From a virus: a stretch of DNA of 64,000 nt. Positions within the stretch are counted from its first letter, which is position 1. Each line of letters starts with the position of its first letter. Made by a program: the position numbers and the translations under genes. The notes under the pieces were generated by a model, which was not told the DNA's origin, did not search any database, and was given only the letters and a program-made list of their open reading frames with translations. Location: positions 44,526 through 108,525 of IMG/VR virus record IMGVR_UViG_3300020478_000004; one strand, 5' to 3'. Below, in pieces: positions 38,818 through 53,441 of this stretch.

Positions 38818-39405
38818 ATGTCGCAATTAATACCGATGGTCGTAGAGTCGACTAACAAAGGCGAACGTGCATATGACATTTATAGTAGGCTATTAAAAGA
38901 TAGAATTATCTTTTTAACAGGACCTATTGATGAGAATGTTGCCGCATCAGTTTGTGCCCAACTACTATTTTTAGAATCAGTTAGTAAGGATAAAGATATC
39001 TCAATGTACATACAATCGCCAGGAGGATATGTTCATTCTGGATTAGCAATTTATGATACAATGCAATATATTAAACCTGATGTAACAACTGTTTGTATAG
39101 GTATGGCGGCATCAGCTGGCTCTATGTTATTAATGGCAGGAGCAAAAGGAAAACGTATTGCATTACCTAATAGTAAAATAATGATTCACCAACCGTCAGG
39201 TGGCTTTAAAGGACAAGCAACTGATATGGAGATTCATGTTAAAGATATTATGGAAACGAAAGATCGTTTGAACAAACTGTATGCTAAACATACAGGAACA
39301 GAACTTAAAGTTATTCAAGATGCTATGGAACGTGATAATTTTATGTTACCTCAGGAGGCAATTGAGTTTGGTCTTATTGATCGAATTGAGGAGAATCGTA
39401 AGTGA
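38818..39405 (+). CDS. clpP: ClpP protease
   Basis: 195 residues, full family length. Catalytic Ser in GMAASAGS (about 99), His in IMIHQPSGG (about 124) and Asp near 173 (MERDNF). YIQSPGG is the ClpP substrate-strand motif. It has no ATPase partner in the window, so it probably uses host ClpX or ClpA. AAGGAG fixes the start. ClpP occurs in several marine phages, possibly for phage protein processing or degradation of host proteins. Confidence 0.93.
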
Positions 39406-40385
39406 TAACTTGGGGAATGGTCGGTAATAGTCACGATGCCAGTATAGCAGTTTTTAAAGACGAAACGCTAGTATGGTCGGCTCTGGCTAAAGACTTTTCT
39501 AAAATAGACAACGATCCGCATTTAAATCCAGAACTTATTAATGCCGCCAAACAAGCTGGTGGCTGGCGAGATCCTGACGAAATTGTATGGTACGAAACAC
39601 CGTGGCTTAAAACTTTAAGACAATGGTGGGCTGGACAAGGTTGGTTAGGAAAAGAAAATAATATTGAAAAATATTTAAAACAATGGAATTTAAAATGTCC
39701 TATTAAGTATGCTATACATCATCACAGCCATGCCGCCTACGGATGGTACACTAGTGGATTTGAAGATGCTACTATATTAGTTCTAGATAGTATAGGTGAG
39801 TTTGAAACATTTACTATATGGCGTGCCACAGATCATCTTAAAAAAATTTATACACAAAGATATCCACATAGTGTTGGATTATTTTATTCTGCTATGACTC
39901 AACGTTTAGGCTTCAAAGCAAACAGAGATGAATATAAAGTTGCTGAACTAGGTGCTCCTATTAGAACTGAAGAAAATTTACACTTAATAAATGACATGGT
40001 AGAAACTTTCGTTGAACCTGAATTAGGTGGAGAAATGCCTGGAGTTCATTTCAAAGTTAATATGCATAAAGGGTGTGATTGGTATAAACCTGAATTAACA
40101 TCAGATATGGATTTGGCAAGACTTGCAAATGCAACACAATTTGTATTTGAATTAATGCTCAAATCAAATAGTAAATGGTGTTTAAAACATCTTCCAAGTC
40201 GTAATCTTATTATTACAGGCGGATGTGCATTGAATAAACAAGCGGTTAATTTAATTCAAAAAGAATGGGATAATATTTGGGTACCACCAAATCCAGGCGA
40301 CCCTGGATCATGTATTGGAGCAGTATTATCAAGAACAAAAAAACATATTGACTTTAACCCTAAAGTATGGTATAATAATAACTAA
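39402..40385 (+). CDS. Carbamoyltransferase-like (NodU/TobZ family), N-terminal domain
   Basis: 327 residues, start GTG 39402 overlapping the clpP stop and preceded by [18 protein letters not shown] and [16 protein letters not shown] match the ATP-hydrolysing carbamoyltransferase domain; [11 protein letters not shown] and [15 protein letters not shown] further motifs. The Sua5-like C-terminal domain of full NodU/TobZ proteins (about 550 residues) is missing. A sugar is the typical acceptor, in keeping with the glycan genes nearby. Confidence 0.82.
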
Positions 40386-43663: not shown

Positions 43664-43936
43664 ATGCCGAGAGAACTCTTAAATACTAAAAACCACAAAA
43701 CACCAACACATACCATCTCCAATACACAATATCAAGACGTAGAATTAGTCAAACTTATGACTGAAGCATTAACGAATAAGAACAAGTATACTGTTCGTGT
43801 AGAAGGTTGGAATATAGAGTACAAACGGCATTGGACCTCTAGCATTAACAGTATCACTAATTGGGACAATTTAAACTTTAATTACAACCAAAAAGCTGAT
43901 ACATTTGTCTTTCAACATAGGAGCAACGGACAATGA
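43664..43936 (+). CDS. Small protein (90 aa), unknown
   Basis: Asn-, Thr- and Lys-rich (MPRELLNTKNHKTPTH). YTVRVEGWNIEYKRHWTS looks like two strands. Its stop overlaps the synthetase-like ATG (ATGA) and an AGGAG for that gene lies in its 3' end, so it is coupled to it. Confidence 0.5.
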   Translation: MPRELLNTKNHKTPTHTISNTQYQDVELVKLMTEALTNKNKYTVRVEGWNIEYKRHWTSSINSITNWDNLNFNYNQKADTFVFQHRSNGQ

Positions 43937-44847
43937 CCCAACTAATTAACCCACAAGCCTTTACCGAAACTGTCGGCCGTTTACGGTCGTTTTTTTTGGA
44001 CAAGGGATTTTACGAAGTACACACTCAAAACAGATTAAGCATACTAGCCGCTTGTGAAGACCCGTTTAACGTAGCAACATACAATTACGCAGACCAAGTA
44101 TGGCCTTTACCCCAAACAGGCCAGATGTGGCTTGAACACGAATTATTAAGTAGCCCCTCTTCGAAGGGGTTTTTTTGTGTCTCCACATCCTATAGGCAGG
44201 AACCAAATGCAATACCAGGAAGACATGATATCATCTTTCCAATGTTTGAATTTGAGATGCCTGGTGATATAGATGACCTTAAGAAGATGGAGTATGAATT
44301 ATGTGAACACTTGGGCTTTAAAAAGCCTACTGAAAAAACTTATGCTGAATGGCAAAAGCATTACGGTCATGCTGAAGACTATGAAATGACTGCGGAAGAA
44401 GAAACCAAGATGCACCAAGAGTTTGGTACAACCATGATAACAGACTTTCCTGAAATGACATCACCTTTTTGGAACATGAGTAGAAATGATGATGGCAAAA
44501 CTGCAAAGAAGATAGATGTTATACTAGGTGGTATGGAAACAATAGGAAGTGCGGAACGTTCATGCGATGTAGAAATGATGCGTGATACATTCCATAGCAT
44601 TACAGACGGAGAGTACAGTAAGCTACTTTATAAACTGTTCAGTCAGGAACGTGTTGAAGCAGAGCTAGAAAAGTTTCTAGAGTTTGACTTCTTTCCGAGA
44701 GTTGGTGGCGGAATAGGATTAACTCGTTTGTTAAGAGCAGTTGAAGATTATAAAAGTAAAAAAGTAAAAACTGATGATGACCGTGAAATTTTATATAATA
44801 AACGCCGAGAGATGAATAGGCAAAGCGTACACGGAATACTTCAATAA
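43933..44847 (+). CDS. Class II aminoacyl-tRNA synthetase-like protein (AsnRS/AspRS type catalytic core only)
   Basis: 304 residues. Motif 1 is near residues 14-30 (GRLRSFFLDKGFYEVHTQ), QTGQMWLEHELL matches the SPQ-type segment, motif 2 is SYRQEPNAIPGRHDIIFPMFEFE (86-108) and motif 3 GGGIGLTRLLRAVE (258-271). ILGGMETIGSAERS matches the Asx-type active-site strand. The N-terminal OB-fold that reads the anticodon in AsnRS/AspRS is absent, as in synthetase paralogues such as AsnA-type asparagine synthetase and EpmA. A tRNA with Asn anticodon starts six bases downstream. Two terminator-like hairpins lie inside the gene. Confidence 0.8.
   Translation: MTQLINPQAFTETVGRLRSFFLDKGFYEVHTQNRLSILAACEDPFNVATYNYADQVWPLPQTGQMWLEHELLSSPSSKGFFCVSTSYRQEPNAIPGRHDIIFPMFEFEMPGDIDDLKKMEYELCEHLGFKKPTEKTYAEWQKHYGHAEDYEMTAEEETKMHQEFGTTMITDFPEMTSPFWNMSRNDDGKTAKKIDVILGGMETIGSAERSCDVEMMRDTFHSITDGEYSKLLYKLFSQERVEAELEKFLEFDFFPRVGGGIGLTRLLRAVEDYKSKKVKTDDDREILYNKRREMNRQSVHGILQ
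43974..43997 (+). terminator. Terminator-like hairpin inside synthetase gene (1)
   Basis: CGGCCG-TTTA-CGGTCG followed by eight T. The coding frame continues through it and keeps motif 1, so it is not an intergenic terminator. Confidence 0.55.
44154..44176 (+). terminator. Terminator-like hairpin inside synthetase gene (2)
   Basis: CCCCT-CTTCGA-AGGGG followed by seven T, at codons for SPSSKGFF. In frame with the rest of the protein. Confidence 0.5.
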
Positions 44848-44853
44848 GGCTTT

Positions 44854-44940
44854 TCCGGGGTGGTGGAAACGGTAGACACGATAGCCTGTTTAGCTATTGC
44901 TTGGGAGAGCGTGAAGGTTCGAATCCTTCCCCCGGAGCCA
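44854..44940 (+). tRNA. tRNA with GUU (Asn) anticodon and long variable arm, CCA encoded
   Basis: Acceptor stem TCCGGGG (44854-44860) pairs with CCCCGGA (44930-44936); discriminator G and CCA follow. D stem GTG/CAC with the Leu-type loop, anticodon stem ATAGC/GCTAT with loop CTGTTTA (anticodon GTT, 44888-44890), a 15-base variable arm with GCT/AGC stem, T stem GAAGG/CCTTC. Aligned base for base with a class II tRNA-Leu the fit is complete. G73, U1-A72 and the GUU anticodon are Asn-like. Decodes AAC/AAU if functional; U37 is unusual. Confidence 0.85.
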
Positions 44941-48046: not shown

Positions 48047-49168
48047 TTATTTCATTATAAACATACTTCCAAACGTTGTTTCGATTGCGTCATTTAATGA
48101 AACGTCTTCTTGTTTATAATAGCCCTTCGGTTTAAGTTTACCCTTTAAAAATAATTCAACCATTGTTAATAATCCTGATGCTGTAGTTAACTCTATTGCT
48201 GTATAATATCTGCCGTTTTCTCTAATAGGATAAAAGAATTTTTTATAACATCTTTCTTTATGGTTACCGTTTTCGTCCCATCCACCAACTACAACATAAA
48301 TGATTACAAGATCACGTCTTGTAGTTGATACACCTCGTTTAATAATGTCAATTAATTCATTTTTAGGAATTCTTAAATCATTCATTAAAAAGTCTATAAG
48401 GTTATGATGTCCTTTATATCTTATTGTTTTATAATTTAAATCTACATTTTCAAATCGTTCATATGGGTGAGAATTAGATATTGTTTTTGCAAACGACCCT
48501 AACCCTCCACTTGTATTAAATGCTTCATATGTATTACCGTCAATCATTAATTCTTCATATCCTGTAAGTGTTGGCACTTTATAATAGCTTCCATTTCTAA
48601 CAATTTCACAGTCGCCACTATATTCATTTATTAATCCATCGGGGCTCCACATCAAATGATACTTTAATTTATTAGTAGAATCTTGTGATAATGAACCTAC
48701 ACGTATTTTAATATAATCAACCTTTTCCATATCATGCATTAGATGGTTAGCAATTACTGTACTCATGCCAGGTGCTAACCCACAATGTGGCATTGTAAAT
48801 GGTAATGGTTTGTTTAGATCAATGTTATGAATAAAGTCATTTAATTCAGCATCTTCTGAGAAATCAAAATAAGGAATGTTATGTTCCAAACAAGCACTAT
48901 ATATAACTACATTTTCAGTATATGGAAGTGCATTAATAACAAGTGTTTTATCAGCTATAAACATCTTAAGCATATTATTGTTAGTGCCCGGATGTCTAGT
49001 ATCTATTTGTTGATAGTGTTCTTCAGCAATTGCTTTAGGATGGAGGTCTTTATAATCACGCATATCCGCTACTGTAACGCTGTATGTTGTACGATCTCTT
49101 AATAGATCGTATACAGCACTACCTATAGCGCCTGCTCCAAATATTGCAATTTTGACTTGATCGGACAT
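48047..49168 (-). CDS. Saccharopine/lysine dehydrogenase-family protein
   Basis: 373 residues. IAIFGAGAIGSAVYDLL (residues 7-23) is the NAD(P)-binding loop, LAPGMSTVIANHL and KYHLMWSPDGLINEY match the central and substrate domains of saccharopine dehydrogenase and lysine 6-dehydrogenase. In the lysine pathway such enzymes release aminoadipate semialdehyde. Polyamine-type relatives (carboxynorspermidine dehydrogenase) are an alternative. It heads a leftward-running group with proline dehydrogenase and aldehyde dehydrogenase. Confidence 0.8.
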   Translation of the reverse strand: MSDQVKIAIFGAGAIGSAVYDLLRDRTTYSVTVADMRDYKDLHPKAIAEEHYQQIDTRHPGTNNNMLKMFIADKTLVINALPYTENVVIYSACLEHNIPYFDFSEDAELNDFIHNIDLNKPLPFTMPHCGLAPGMSTVIANHLMHDMEKVDYIKIRVGSLSQDSTNKLKYHLMWSPDGLINEYSGDCEIVRNGSYYKVPTLTGYEELMIDGNTYEAFNTSGGLGSFAKTISNSHPYERFENVDLNYKTIRYKGHHNLIDFLMNDLRIPKNELIDIIKRGVSTTRRDLVIIYVVVGGWDENGNHKERCYKKFFYPIRENGRYYTAIELTTASGLLTMVELFLKGKLKPKGYYKQEDVSLNDAIETTFGSMFIMK

Positions 49169-49179
49169 AGTATTATTAC

Positions 49180-50028
49180 TTATCTAGCAAAGTACTCCTT
49201 TAGGATATTAATACCTACAAATTTAAGATTCTTAAACTCCATTAAACGTCTTGTTACATAGGGCATCCAATTATCACCATACGGCACGTATGTTCTAACT
49301 TTATACCCATCTTCTAATAATCGTTTAGCTAAATCTCTTCTAATACCAAATAACATCTCAAAATAAAACTTTGTTTTACAAGCATATTGAGTAGCTAATT
49401 CTTTTATGTTTTCAATAAGGTATTCGTCATGTGTTGCTAATGATACTAATTCTTGTTGATAACTTTTATGATAAAAATATCCGCTTCTAAATAATTCCTC
49501 TACTAACTCTAAGTACGCAAACCTTATTTTAGTCATATTCGTTATATCGCCTTTGTATGCTCCTTTACATATTCTTACTCTACGAAACCTTTCAATTACA
49601 TCAGCTAAATCAGTATATGACCGTTCCATATTAGCTTGTAGCACAATACCTACATCATTAAAACAACGGGAAAATTTTATCGTATCATCAATTAAGTCTG
49701 CCTTTTCCATATCAAATTTAATTTTAATTCTTGGATTATCTTTTATTGCATTAACTATTTGTTCTACAGGCTCTTTCCATTGATATGGTGCATTACCAAA
49801 TTGACTTAACTTAATTGATATTTCATATTGTCTAACAGCCCACGTACCTTTTAGATAATCAATTAAATGTAAATATTCTGTTAAGTTTTTTAATCTTTGT
49901 AAATCTGTAGTAGCAGTTTCACCTACATAATTAATAGTTACTAAATCATAATAAACAATATTATGTATCATAGACTTAACATCATCGCCTGCTATAAATC
50001 TTTTAGCCAACGGATATAATAGTTTCAT
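49180..50028 (-). CDS. Proline dehydrogenase (PRODH) domain protein
   Basis: 282 residues, close to the length of a single-function bacterial PRODH. EISIKLSQFG, VRICKGAYKGD and YFEMLFGIRRDL mark the FAD-binding barrel; VRTYVPYGDNWMPYVTRRLMEF is the helix with the conserved Tyr and Arg-Arg that bind the proline carboxylate. It oxidises proline to pyrroline-5-carboxylate, passing electrons to FAD and then quinone. P5C dehydrogenase would normally follow; an aldehyde dehydrogenase lies 2 kb away on the same strand. Confidence 0.85.
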   Translation of the reverse strand: MKLLYPLAKRFIAGDDVKSMIHNIVYYDLVTINYVGETATTDLQRLKNLTEYLHLIDYLKGTWAVRQYEISIKLSQFGNAPYQWKEPVEQIVNAIKDNPRIKIKFDMEKADLIDDTIKFSRCFNDVGIVLQANMERSYTDLADVIERFRRVRICKGAYKGDITNMTKIRFAYLELVEELFRSGYFYHKSYQQELVSLATHDEYLIENIKELATQYACKTKFYFEMLFGIRRDLAKRLLEDGYKVRTYVPYGDNWMPYVTRRLMEFKNLKFVGINILKEYFAR

Positions 50029-50504
50029 TATCTCACTTCTTTAAAATATTTTAATTCGTTTTCCATTACACCAAATTTTAATTGCATATCTTTTAATGGA
50101 ATATCCCAATCTTCTTTATGCCAGGGCCATTCGCCTATACGTTTAACACCTTTACGAGTTTTTCCATAATAAAACCCTCTTTGAAATATTTGTATTTGTT
50201 CTTTTGTAAATTTATTTTCTTCTGGATATAAGTAACGTGAAATGAATTTAAATAATGTTACTTCCCAACTTTTAATTCGATCGTCTGTACCCATAGTGAA
50301 TCCGATTACAAATGCTTCTGAATCATTTGATTGATCACACTCTAGTAATACGTGAACAGCATCATGATCACGTAGACTAGCTGACCCGTGTAAACAAAAT
50401 GGAGACATTGGATTCTCCATTAACCATATCATGAAAGGTATTGCCTCTGGCTCTACCGTTTTGTATCCTTGCATGAACCTTTCGAATGCCTGACGAAAAG
50501 TCAT
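50028..50504 (-). CDS. Conserved protein with DHDAVH motif
   Basis: 158 residues. LRDHDAVHVLLEC resembles the zinc-binding HDxxH motif of COQ4-like proteins; DSEAFVIGFTMGTD follows. Helical overall. Overlaps the PRODH start by one base, so it is coupled to it. COQ4-like identity is tentative; a link with quinone would fit PRODH. Confidence 0.5.
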   Translation of the reverse strand: MTFRQAFERFMQGYKTVEPEAIPFMIWLMENPMSPFCLHGSASLRDHDAVHVLLECDQSNDSEAFVIGFTMGTDDRIKSWEVTLFKFISRYLYPEENKFTKEQIQIFQRGFYYGKTRKGVKRIGEWPWHKEDWDIPLKDMQLKFGVMENELKYFKEVR

Positions 50505-50517
50505 AACTTACCCTCTT

Positions 50518-50796
50518 TTATAAAAACAACATTTTGTATATTCCAAACAATGTAACACATATAACGATTATATTTAACACTACTAAATTAATACTTTGTC
50601 GCATATAAGCATTAACTGAATGTAATAAAGATCCAGCAAGTGTTAAAAGGAACACAAGCATGACTTTAGCATCATCGCCAAACCATGCTAGTACAACATA
50701 AACAGATATAAAACATAATGCACCGGCTGTTTCTATTACTAGTCTTACTCTGTTATTTTCCCAGTCATCTTTTAACCATTGCTGGATACTTTTCAA
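50518..50796 (-). CDS. Three-helix membrane protein (92 aa)
   Basis: Membrane segments at about 21-37, 45-60 and 72-90 after a charged N terminus (IQQWLKDDWENNRVRL). I recall similar small membrane proteins in marine metagenomes. Overlaps its upstream neighbour. Confidence 0.55.
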   Translation of the reverse strand: MKSIQQWLKDDWENNRVRLVIETAGALCFISVYVVLAWFGDDAKVMLVFLLTLAGSLLHSVNAYMRQSINLVVLNIIVICVTLFGIYKMLFL

Positions 50797-51188
50797 ATAC
50801 TGTCTCCGTCGGGTTTAGGAGCAAATAATTTTGCTCTGTTACCGCCAACAATACAAGCTAAATCTTTATGCTTATAGAAAAATACAATAGCCCATGTGTC
50901 GTTATTTGGATTCATCCACATTTCAACAGACATAAGCTCTTTATAGAATTCGTTATGCACTAGTCCTTCCATGGCTTTATGCATTTTATAATCACTTTCT
51001 GCCATCTCACGCATTTTATCTCTAGTATCACAATACGTAAGAATATTATCTAACTTTTTTAAGTTAGGTTCGTGCTCTTGACTTTCGTGTGCTTTAGCTG
51101 AATTCATACTACATAAAGTTATAGCACACATAATGACAAATAAGAATAATAATCTAAAAAAACCTATATTAGGTTTATACATTGTCAT
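50793..51188 (-). CDS. Secreted small protein with signal peptide
   Basis: 131 residues. Signal peptide to SAKA-HE at about residue 33, then a helical domain with two Cys (TYCDTRDKM, LACIVGG). Periplasmic, probably. GGAGG precedes ATG 51188. Next to a periplasmic thioredoxin-like protein, so the Cys pair could be its substrate. Confidence 0.6.
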   Translation of the reverse strand: MTMYKPNIGFFRLLFLFVIMCAITLCSMNSAKAHESQEHEPNLKKLDNILTYCDTRDKMREMAESDYKMHKAMEGLVHNEFYKELMSVEMWMNPNNDTWAIVFFYKHKDLACIVGGNRAKLFAPKPDGDSI

Positions 51189-51189
51189 T

Positions 51190-51891
51190 TTACCTCCTTT
51201 CTTCTAAGAGTTGCTCAGAGCCTTTATTAACAATCATGGAACAAGGCATCCATACCTGTTCTTTTGCATGATAGTGAATATTTGATCCACAGTCTAAAAA
51301 CTCAGCGGCCTGTAATGCTTTTTGCGGAGTATTATACGTATGATCAAAAATATTATCTGAATCTATTACTCCATCTGGAACATAACGCTTTAATTCCAAA
51401 TGTTTACCTCCATGGGAACCTTCAGGAAATGGTATTTCTCCAGGAACAGTACCTGGTATTTCTCCACCTTGTCCTGGCCATTGATCTTTATTTTGCTTTC
51501 CTAAAAACTGTTGGTTGTTCCCATGTATTAATGCTTGATGATCTCTCATAAAAGTTTCTATGATTTCATAAAAATCATTTGCATTCTTATATCCAACCCA
51601 GCGTGTAACTTCATGGTCTGTCCATATTATAAATGTAGGAGTTCCAGTTATTTTACCTATACGTTTTTCTTTAAACGCTTGAACATACCAATCTGGTACA
51701 GGTTTATTCATATTAATAATACGTAATGGTATAACTTCACCTGCTGGTGAATCTTTATACGTAGGTTCAACCTCTTTTAAAAAGTTTTGACAGTAACCAC
51801 AGTTGGGATTACTGAACATCAATAATTCTATTGCTTGACTCGGTGATGCGAATAGCAAGACGAATGCTACTGCTATGAATAGCTTTTTCAA
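51190..51891 (-). CDS. Periplasmic thioredoxin-like protein
   Basis: 233 residues. Signal peptide ends at SQA (about 20); LLMFSNPNCGYCQNFLKEV has the CxxC redox site (31-34) and GTPTFIIW the cis-Pro. The C-terminal 110 residues after a Gly/Pro linker have two further Cys and resemble a separate small domain. DsbC/thioredoxin-type disulphide chemistry is likely. It stands beside the secreted Cys protein. Confidence 0.75.
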   Translation of the reverse strand: MKKLFIAVAFVLLFASPSQAIELLMFSNPNCGYCQNFLKEVEPTYKDSPAGEVIPLRIINMNKPVPDWYVQAFKEKRIGKITGTPTFIIWTDHEVTRWVGYKNANDFYEIIETFMRDHQALIHGNNQQFLGKQNKDQWPGQGGEIPGTVPGEIPFPEGSHGGKHLELKRYVPDGVIDSDNIFDHTYNTPQKALQAAEFLDCGSNIHYHAKEQVWMPCSMIVNKGSEQLLEERR

Positions 51892-51917
51892 ATCCTTCTC
51901 CTTATAGCTAGTTTTAT

Positions 51918-53441
51918 TTAATCGTCTATTTGAGCTTTCTGCAAAGTACCACTGTAATCAACAAATACTGATTTCCATTCAGTACAATTATCAATCATAC
52001 TATGCCCAGCTTCACGATGCCCGTTACCAGTTCCTTTAGTACCACCGAACGGTAATTGTATTTCTGCACCGATTGTAGACGAATTAATGTAAGTAATGCC
52101 TGTATCAATTTCATGTAATGCTTTAAAGGCAAAATTTACATTCGCCGTATAGACAGCGGCCGATAATCCGTACTTACTATTATTAACCATATCTATGACT
52201 TCATCTGTATCACTAAATGATACTATAGCTACTACAGGACCAAATACTTCTTCCTGGGCTATCATATCATTTTGATCTACATCTGTTATTACTGTAGGTG
52301 TATAGAACCAACCATATGTTTCTGTAAACGTACCATACTTTTCATCTATATCATTAGTTGGATATTGATTTATTTTACCCCCACATAATACTTTATTGTT
52401 AACTGATGCTTCTGTTACCATTGTATGAATCTTCTTTAATGCTTTCTCATTAATAACAGGACCCATATCAACTTTATCATCTAAGCCGTCGCCTATGAAC
52501 AACGACTCTGCTCGTTTAACAAGTTTATCTGTAAAGTCAGCTTTAAGACTGTCGTGTACAAATACTCTAGAACACGCTGTACAACGCTGACCTGATGTGC
52601 CGAATGCACCCCATACAACACCATCTACTGCTAGATCAATATCAGCATCTTCCATTACAACTATTGCATTTTTACCACCCATCTCTAATGAGTATGGTAC
52701 CATACGTTCTGAACATCTAGTTGCAATTTGATAACCTGTTACAGTTGATCCTGTAAATGATACAAACTTAACAGTAGGATTATCTACTAATGGTTGTCCA
52801 GCTGATGGTCCATATCCTGTAACTACATTAAACACTCCTGCTGGAAGTCCTGCTTCTTCGAATACCATTGCTAGTCTGCATACACTTAATGGTGTATCCT
52901 CTGCAGGTTTAATAACCATTGTGTTACCGGCTACAAGGGCAGGGAAGGCCTTCCATGACGGAATGGCTATTGGAAAATTCCAAGGAGTAATTGCTCCAAT
53001 GACGCCTATCGGCATCCTCATGGACATACAGAACTTATCGTTCAGTTCTGAAGGAACAACTTGTCCTCCTAATCTCCGACCTTCACCTGCCGCATAGTAA
53101 CCCATGTCAATTGCTTCTTGGACATCGCCTCGTGTTTCAGATAATGGCTTACCCATTTCTTGGGTCATTACTTTTGCTATATCTTCTTTATCACGCAACA
53201 GAATTTCTGCCGCTTTAAACATTATTTCACCCCGTTTGGGTGCTGGCATCTTACGCCACGTTTTGAATGCCTTCGCGGCCGCCTCAACCGCATTATCTAT
53301 ATCTTCTTTGTTACTGTCTTGTACAGTAGCGATTACTTTAGTACAGTGAGCGGGATTGGTGACTTCAAAAGTCTTGCCAGAAGCCGAGTCTACCCATTGC
53401 CCACCAATGTAATTTTTATAATCAGTTCTGAATATATTCAT
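51918..53441 (-). CDS. Aldehyde dehydrogenase (aminoadipate-/glutamate-semialdehyde type)
   Basis: 507 residues. ITPWNFPIAIPSWK, FTGSTVTGYQI (NAD), LEMGGKNAIVV (general base Glu) and GQRCTACSRVFV (nucleophile Cys) form the complete ALDH set. The exact substrate is not set by motifs; together with saccharopine dehydrogenase and PRODH, aminoadipate semialdehyde or glutamate semialdehyde are the natural candidates. A TAAATA late motif lies upstream at 53472. Confidence 0.92.
   Translation of the reverse strand: MNIFRTDYKNYIGGQWVDSASGKTFEVTNPAHCTKVIATVQDSNKEDIDNAVEAAAKAFKTWRKMPAPKRGEIMFKAAEILLRDKEDIAKVMTQEMGKPLSETRGDVQEAIDMGYYAAGEGRRLGGQVVPSELNDKFCMSMRMPIGVIGAITPWNFPIAIPSWKAFPALVAGNTMVIKPAEDTPLSVCRLAMVFEEAGLPAGVFNVVTGYGPSAGQPLVDNPTVKFVSFTGSTVTGYQIATRCSERMVPYSLEMGGKNAIVVMEDADIDLAVDGVVWGAFGTSGQRCTACSRVFVHDSLKADFTDKLVKRAESLFIGDGLDDKVDMGPVINEKALKKIHTMVTEASVNNKVLCGGKINQYPTNDIDEKYGTFTETYGWFYTPTVITDVDQNDMIAQEEVFGPVVAIVSFSDTDEVIDMVNNSKYGLSAAVYTANVNFAFKALHEIDTGITYINSSTIGAEIQLPFGGTKGTGNGHREAGHSMIDNCTEWKSVFVDYSGTLQKAQIDD

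Follow-up and report, generated by a model that had tools for sequence, protein, structure and literature searches.

What a virus does with a tRNA gene that joins a leucine-type body to the identity elements of an asparagine tRNA is the question raised by positions 44854..44940 (plus strand) of the window (i.e. the whole 64,000-nt stretch of viral DNA analysed here, taken from an IMG/VR virus contig of 108,525 bases), and this family of chimeric tRNAs is relevant to the wider question of why phages have tRNA genes. ARAGORN called a tRNA-Asn(GTT) with exactly these bounds, the Rfam tRNA model RF00005 matched positions 44854-44937 (51.4 bits, E 4e-8; the sole Rfam match in the window), and the gene scored 92.3 bits against the family covariance model R1. 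The acceptor stem (7 bp) pairs UCCGGGG (44854..44860) with CCCCGGA (44930-44936), opens with U1-A72 and is followed by the discriminator G73 and an encoded CCA (44937..44940). The D region reads UGGUGGAAACGGUAGACACG, the anticodon stem (AUAGC/GCUAU) closes the loop CUGUUUA, with the anticodon GUU at 44888..44890 and U37 at 44891..44891, the 15-nt variable region (44898..44912) reads UGCUUGGGAGAGCGU and holds a short stem (GCU/AGC), and the T arm (5-bp stem) is GAAGGUUCGAAUCCUUC; all of these lie on the plus strand. Measured against canonical tRNA-Asn, the gene has the expected GUU and G73, but lacks the class I body with its short variable loop (the arm is 15 nt long and bears a stem) and the purine (a modified A) at position 37; measured against tRNA-Leu, it has the type II body with a Leu-like D arm, but G73 and GUU in place of A73 and a Leu anticodon. 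The Leu-like character of the body is further indicated by the matches of R1 in bacterial genomes, which (where fetched and typed) were mostly tRNA-Leu, the weaker ones including Ser, Tyr and class I Asn tRNAs. The chimera that the earlier note had proposed from the letters alone is thereby confirmed. The R1 and R2 models returned mostly tRNA-Leu, only a subset of their listed matches was typed, and in large genomes they scored only part of the candidates, so that absence from a genome is weak evidence.

Folding of the single sequence did not recover the cloverleaf, which is recovered by covariation: in 50 distinct homologues all five helices covary, including the variable-arm stem (helix 4), with 99.7% of the cells paired (vs 83.9% in shuffles) and 178 double-changed cells (vs 35), a value that none of 500 shuffles reached. 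Since the stems covary this strongly, the tRNA fold is maintained and the chimeric tRNA is a real one. The earlier note had named a better-scoring fold with a standard Leu anticodon as a refutation, and none better was found; a leucine tRNA with a shifted anticodon is ruled out by the 7-nt loop that displays GUU in the window's tRNA and GUY in all homologues parsed.

Six nucleotides before the tRNA ends a gene of the same strand (43933..44847) encoding a 304-aa protein, in which the class II D/K/N synthetase core (PF00152, 6.3e-18) is the only Pfam domain and which belongs to PHROG 29758 (2.4e-128), a family of ‘unknown function’. The protein lies far under the cut-offs of the AsnRS, AspRS, EpmA and AsnA families (e.g. 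31.3 bits of 342.6 for the AsnRS family TIGR00457). Its AlphaFold2 model (monomer only; pLDDT 90.8, from an alignment of 30 sequences) finds its best structural neighbours among AsnRS (Z 27.5 for the human enzyme with Asn-AMP), followed by AspRS (best Z 25.5), GenX (23.9) and the archaeal asparagine synthetase (23.1). R88, E90 and R265 are invariant across the 30 enzyme sequences, and we take the former two to be the motif 2 residues and the latter the motif 3 residue. The stretch LPQTGQMWLE aligns with LTQSSQLYLE of AsnRS, where AspRS has SPQLYKQ or similar; its GQMWLE hence pairs with the SQLYLE of AsnRS and not with the AspRS form, and we assume that this stretch is what separates Asn from Asp pockets. 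The enzyme thus shares with AsnRS (class IIb) the catalytic-core fold, the motif 2 and 3 residues with their arginines and the pocket motif, but is a minimal version of it: family members have about 270-304 aa and ~20% identity to AsnRS, and the N-terminal OB-fold anticodon-binding domain is missing (the core starts at about residue 4). Judged by the predicted structure, the protein amounts to the core of a class IIb synthetase, nearest to AsnRS and without an anticodon-binding domain. Because the pocket is AsnRS-like, we infer that its amino acid is most likely Asn, an assignment based on one sequence motif and a narrow margin in fold score, in the absence of aminoacylation data.

We assessed how firmly the two genes are tied to each other by an enzyme-based search that drew loci from viral contigs, phage records and genomes; each scan of viral contigs contributed the best 80 of its 597-600 confirmed candidates and is not a random sample. 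The 301 distinct locus records (overlapping fetches of one contig being merged only when both the gene and the DNA downstream of it matched exactly from a common start) were reduced to 288 by dropping 13 in which the contig ended soon after the gene, and 262 of these were counted as phage-type (including the window, the phage records and L087-L090, which are binned in MAGs), with L091-L116 and L181-L184 left out as cellular. The final tRNA parser required a variable region of at least 9 nt and the T-loop motif, and it dropped two demands of an earlier version, namely a pyrimidine (U or C) at 33 and pairing of 1 with 72. Among the matches listed, 235 of the 262 distinct phage-type loci have a long-arm tRNA no more than 400 nt beyond the synthetase stop; these tRNAs comprise 176 distinct sequences, 160 of which start 4-12 nt after the stop. 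In the other 27 loci no tRNA was parsed beside the enzyme: several hold short-arm or imperfect versions by eye (short-arm members fall under ‘none’ because of what the parser requires), and in others none was seen. At one locus (L090:5866-5885) the synthetase is followed by two joined acceptor strands and CCA with the tRNA body missing, which could be a deletion, an assembly error or a minihelix. Conversely, a scan of viral contigs with a pattern for the tRNA only (one that demands U33 and GTT and hence samples that type alone) found the synthetase directly upstream in 78 of the best 80 loci (of 597-600 candidates), the contig ending 66-67 nt upstream of the tRNA in the other two. This reciprocal search rules out that the genes are chance neighbours. 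Any other gene family in the neighbourhood is shared by at most 16 of the 176 loci (matches listed), from which we conclude that the two genes form a self-sufficient cassette. Nothing supports a new genetic code or a new amino acid. The earlier note had suggested that a long-armed Asn tRNA would be told apart from the host tRNA by a dedicated enzyme, and one part of this stands, in the form of a synthetase-like gene directly upstream that accompanies the tRNA in hundreds of contigs; that the long arm acts as the discriminator has not been shown, and a few members (L475 and L392) are short-armed. The enzyme gene itself, like the family-wide loss of conserved positions 33 and 37 and the cellular relatives described below, lay outside what that note had covered.

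The positions of the tRNA that are held fixed differ sharply from those that are free. Of the 176 distinct tRNAs (matches listed), 173 carry GTT as their anticodon and 3 carry GTC; the acceptor stem opens with T-A (U1-A72) in 175, and base 73 is G in all; position 8 is T and the D-loop GG is present in all 176 (GG being required by the parser), the T-loop is kept in nearly all, and the variable region spans 11-39 nt among parsed members. The encoded CCA is absent in 62 of the 176, mainly in one clade that includes P-SSM7. Position 33 of a tRNA is normally U (C, A or G being rare there outside initiator tRNAs) and position 37 is normally a purine. In this family position 33 is T in 145, C in 15, A in 14 and G in 2 (i.e. 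non-U in 31), and position 37 is T in 151, A in 18, C in 4 and G in 3, so that the U37 that had been singled out as unusual in the window is part of a wider departure (a pyrimidine in 155 of the 176 distinct homologues listed), and U33 and a purine at 37 occur together in only 20. Loci in which C, A or G33 stands beside an intact GUU downstream of the synthetase include L028, L249, L255, L263, L407, L441 and L276. A further 100 distinct tRNAs encoded at these loci served as controls: every one has U33, 98 have a purine at 37, and the two exceptions at 37 proved to be the short-arm members of the chimeric family already mentioned (L475 and L392), leaving 98 true controls that are normal at both positions. 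On the tree of the enzymes, the fewest changes needed were 0, 0 and 3 at positions 34, 35 and 36, and 0, 1 and 0 at 1, 72 and 73, as opposed to 26, 22, 21 and 33 at 32, 33, 37 and 38, and 5-33 at each of the remaining acceptor positions (Fitch parsimony on one FastTree with 173 tRNA-bearing tips, branch support ignored; recombination between tRNA and gene would inflate the counts at all positions alike). The anticodon drift that would have betrayed a pseudogene is therefore absent, and a pseudogene is ruled out by the covariation of every helix and the frozen anticodon. A queuosine signal (U33-G34-U35) as the cause of the fixed anticodon is likewise ruled out, since 33 varies. The combination of a frozen anticodon with a dispensable U33 and purine 37 amounts to a natural experiment on the role of positions 33 and 37.

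According to the accessible part of PMC9976931, the bacterial Asn identity set consists of G73, G34, U35, U36 and A37, and the Asp set of G73, G10, G34, U35, C36 and C38; U1-A72 is given there as what permits amidation of Asp-tRNA-Asn, and in yeast a modified A37 prevents aspartylation. By that listing, the family holds every Asn determinant except A37, together with the amidation pair, and releases the positions that matter for decoding. By analogy with the yeast A37, the U37 of the chimeric tRNA may be relevant to aspartylation.

Homologues of the enzyme (43-63% identity to that of the window) occur sporadically in cells, i.e. in MAGs of bacteria and archaea and in one Chlamydia assembly. 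The enzyme is present in 4 of 100 genomes of one family and gives strong matches in 7 of 198 genomes of the order Chitinophagales (that of genome G011), a further 13 of the 198 giving only weak matches (E 1e-4 to 1e-3) to longer proteins and not being counted as carriers. With the strict parser, no chimeric tRNA was found within 600 nt of the synthetase in the 27 loci L090-L116; among the stand-alone homologues without such a tRNA nearby are L113, L100, L101, L110 and L111 (Chlamydia assembly, Patescibacteria, Woesearchaeota and Dependentiae). Three genomes (G011, G014 and G010) hold elsewhere long-arm tRNAs with U1-A72, G73 and the anticodon GUC, and a pattern search with positive controls (G000 and G033) found the tRNA in only G011 and G014 among the remaining cellular genomes. 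In the Chitinophagales sample, 30 of the 198 genomes have a long-arm tRNA match no shorter than 110 nt, and 13 of these carry two to four; the 30 include 4 of the 7 enzyme carriers, and in the other 26 no close synthetase was found (tRNA in 4/7 carriers vs 26/191 others, Fisher test p 0.011, kinship ignored). The 38 loci parsed yielded 32 distinct giant-arm sequences with arms of 44-108 nt, all of which have U1-A72, G73, GTC and C38, and an ATAAA...CTAAC motif recurs in many. ARAGORN made no call at the three giant-arm loci given to it (L124, L125 and L141), nor did Rfam (E 0.01) match a tRNA at any of the seven loci searched, so that the analysis exposes a class of giant-arm tRNAs that both tools missed where tried. 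We regard these GUC tRNAs as relatives of the phage tRNA, their common descent being likely, not proven. Giant-arm tRNA-like genes were seen at L124, L125, L141, L504-L516 and L521-L536 (genomes of the Chitinophagales order and Aureispira), often with two to four clustered. In 17 of the 37 Chitinophagales loci compared (some of these loci overlap one another), the giant-arm tRNA has an Lrp/AsnC-like ORF (named by eye) close to it, a proximity that we take as a conserved chromosomal position. Two matches in LR756508 (at 9418 and 71288) were judged by eye to be other tRNA-like sequences and not members.

On the grounds of the linkage and the frozen acceptor end, we infer that the enzyme charges the neighbouring tRNA, which we regard as likely, with good confidence, in the absence of aminoacylation data. 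The reading that we prefer goes further, and we put it forward as one that could equally well turn out wrong: the cassette would be a private Asn-charging pair that supplies the phage with an Asn tRNA that resists host anticodon nucleases, with the charging, the amino acid and the use in decoding under host attack on tRNAs all being inferred. According to this proposal, the minimal synthetase would form asparaginyl-adenylate and load Asn onto its partner, reading the acceptor end (U1-A72 and G73) and probably the elbow and the variable arm, as an enzyme without an anticodon-binding domain needs to recognize the acceptor end. The loaded tRNA would decode Asn codons (AAU and AAC) in phage messages, and GUU would be kept for that purpose; as the enzyme cannot reach the anticodon by the usual route, the fixed GUU suggests ribosomal use at Asn codons. 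The loop flanks (32, 33, 37 and 38) and the body, having diverged from the host tRNA-Asn, may go unrecognized by host anticodon nucleases and other tRNA-depleting defences, and the altered tRNA would be a poor substrate for the host AsnRS/AspRS, which is why a dedicated enzyme would be needed. Such a pair is supported by the observed reciprocal linkage, the intact catalytic core, the AsnRS-nearest fold with its AsnRS-type pocket motif and the 98 same-locus controls, none of which has lost U33 or the purine at 37. The frozen positions 1, 34, 35, 36, 72 and 73 also match the bacterial Asn set and the amidation determinant as far as these are given in PMC9976931. An intact anticodon with mutated loop flanks is, in the part of PMC10264068 at hand, the pattern proposed for nuclease-proof phage tRNAs, and the chimeric family meets it; by this analogy the flank changes agree with an escape from anticodon nucleases, for which there are no host nuclease data. 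Against the private pair stands that A33, G33 or C33 together with U37 should weaken decoding, so that decoding is not the first role one would infer. Furthermore, U1-A72 and G73 are frozen in the cellular relatives too, mostly in genomes without a close synthetase (26/30), and are therefore not explained by the enzyme alone; the loci without a parsed tRNA (27/262) and the cellular homologues without such a tRNA nearby also count against it.

The main rival is a use off the ribosome, in which the Asn or Asp of the charged tRNA would be spent elsewhere (e.g. in modifying a protein, lipid or wall), charging being due to the phage enzyme or to a host AspRS/AsnRS that reads GUY, with possible amidation by GatCAB. 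We consider such a donor role unlikely, though worth keeping in view: it would leave the decoding loop free to decay and hold the determinants of aminoacylation and amidation fixed, as is seen in positions 33 and 37, each changed more than 20 times, next to 1, 34, 35, 36, 72 and 73, which have hardly moved, in a tRNA whose fold is intact by its U8, D-loop GG and T-loop. The loss of U33 in some members is easier to understand if the tRNA does not decode, in which case the host AspRS/AsnRS may be the reader of GUY, and the 32 giant-arm relatives keep U1-A72, G73, GUC and C38, which is most of the Asp set plus the amidation determinant as listed in the accessible part of PMC9976931. However, no acceptor gene is conserved beside the cassette, and since the phage enzyme has no domain that reads GUU, the anticodon need not be fixed for the enzyme alone. 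Extending this line, one may speculate, with considerable doubt, that phages and some Bacteroidetes share a separate Asx tRNA class (Leu-like body, U1-A72 and G73, GUU in phages and GUC in cells, arms from 11 to 108 nt) that abandoned the usual decoding loop and acts as a carrier dedicated to Asn/Asp, possibly outside the ribosome, and that phages made this class autonomous by means of a private minimal synthetase.

Two further explanations were weighed. The enzyme could be an asparagine synthetase of the AsnA or archaeal AS-AR type or an EpmA-like protein-modifying ligase with which the tRNA merely travels, AS-AR and GenX/EpmA being likewise stand-alone class IIb cores of similar fold (Z about 23 and 24); the phage enzyme, however, falls far under both NCBIfam cut-offs (NF005053, 12.5 of 322; TIGR00462, 20.4 of 286.9) and differs from them in its tightly linked tRNA partner, and a hitch-hiking tRNA would hardly yield the linkage in 78 of the best 80 tRNA-pattern loci together with a fixed acceptor-end identity, which makes this improbable. 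That the tRNA is instead a decoy, its GU-containing anticodon occupying a host anticodon nuclease or modification enzyme and its charging protecting or maturing the bait, agrees with the invariance of G34 and U35 in the 176 phage-type and 32 cellular tRNAs and with flanks that vary in the phage ones, but leaves the linked synthetase and the fixed U1-A72 and G73 unexplained, and we give it very little credence.

A full-text literature search (titles and starts of abstracts, with subscription papers and most preprints not covered) found no paper on either the pair or the chimeric tRNA, and the two-gene tRNA-charging cassette of marine phages seems to be undescribed so far. Relatives of the cassette occur in T4-like cyanophages, and in P-SSM2 and P-SSM7 the family gene, labelled ‘tRNA ligase’ in GenBank, is directly followed by a tRNA-Asn. 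For these two phages PMC3037559 tabulates the same genes as T4-GC 194 ‘tRNA ligase’; they are members of the synthetase family, but the accessible part of that paper gives the gene name only and discusses neither the pairing nor the chimeric tRNA. Among known tRNAs of unusual architecture, the closest in kind are the long-arm selC* tRNA-Cys, which comes with a matching synthetase variant (CysRS*), and the allo-tRNAs (Mukai 2017, via PMC7609411); as far as the latter source describes them, these have lengthened acceptor domains and identities of the Sec/Ser/Cys type, in contrast to the phage tRNA with its 7-bp acceptor, 5-bp T stem, Leu-like body and Asn identity. The nuclease-evading phage tRNAs of PMC10264068 likewise keep the anticodon and change the flanks of the loop, but no synthetase is mentioned in the part of that paper available, whereas the chimera is of type II, has its own synthetase and in some members has replaced U33. 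Few dedicated tRNA-synthetase pairs exist in nature, and they are valuable; as the cassette is small and present in marine phages that include cultured cyanophages (P-SSM2 and P-SSM7), it is directly testable.

Elsewhere in the window, a minus-strand run of amino-acid genes (48047-53441; saccharopine dehydrogenase-like, proline dehydrogenase and aldehyde dehydrogenase) is unusual for a phage and is not a constant companion of the cassette, given that no neighbouring family exceeds the 16 loci noted above. A ClpP-like protease ORF (38818-39405, by eye) is followed by a carbamoyltransferase N-terminal domain (39402-40385). At about 46000, right after the cassette, both GC skew and the direction of coding reverse, and G+C rises up to 0.43-0.44 at 56-62 kb. 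In six related viral contigs (L004, L016, L023, L054, L063 and L072) ARAGORN also reported tmRNA genes (marked tmRNA*).
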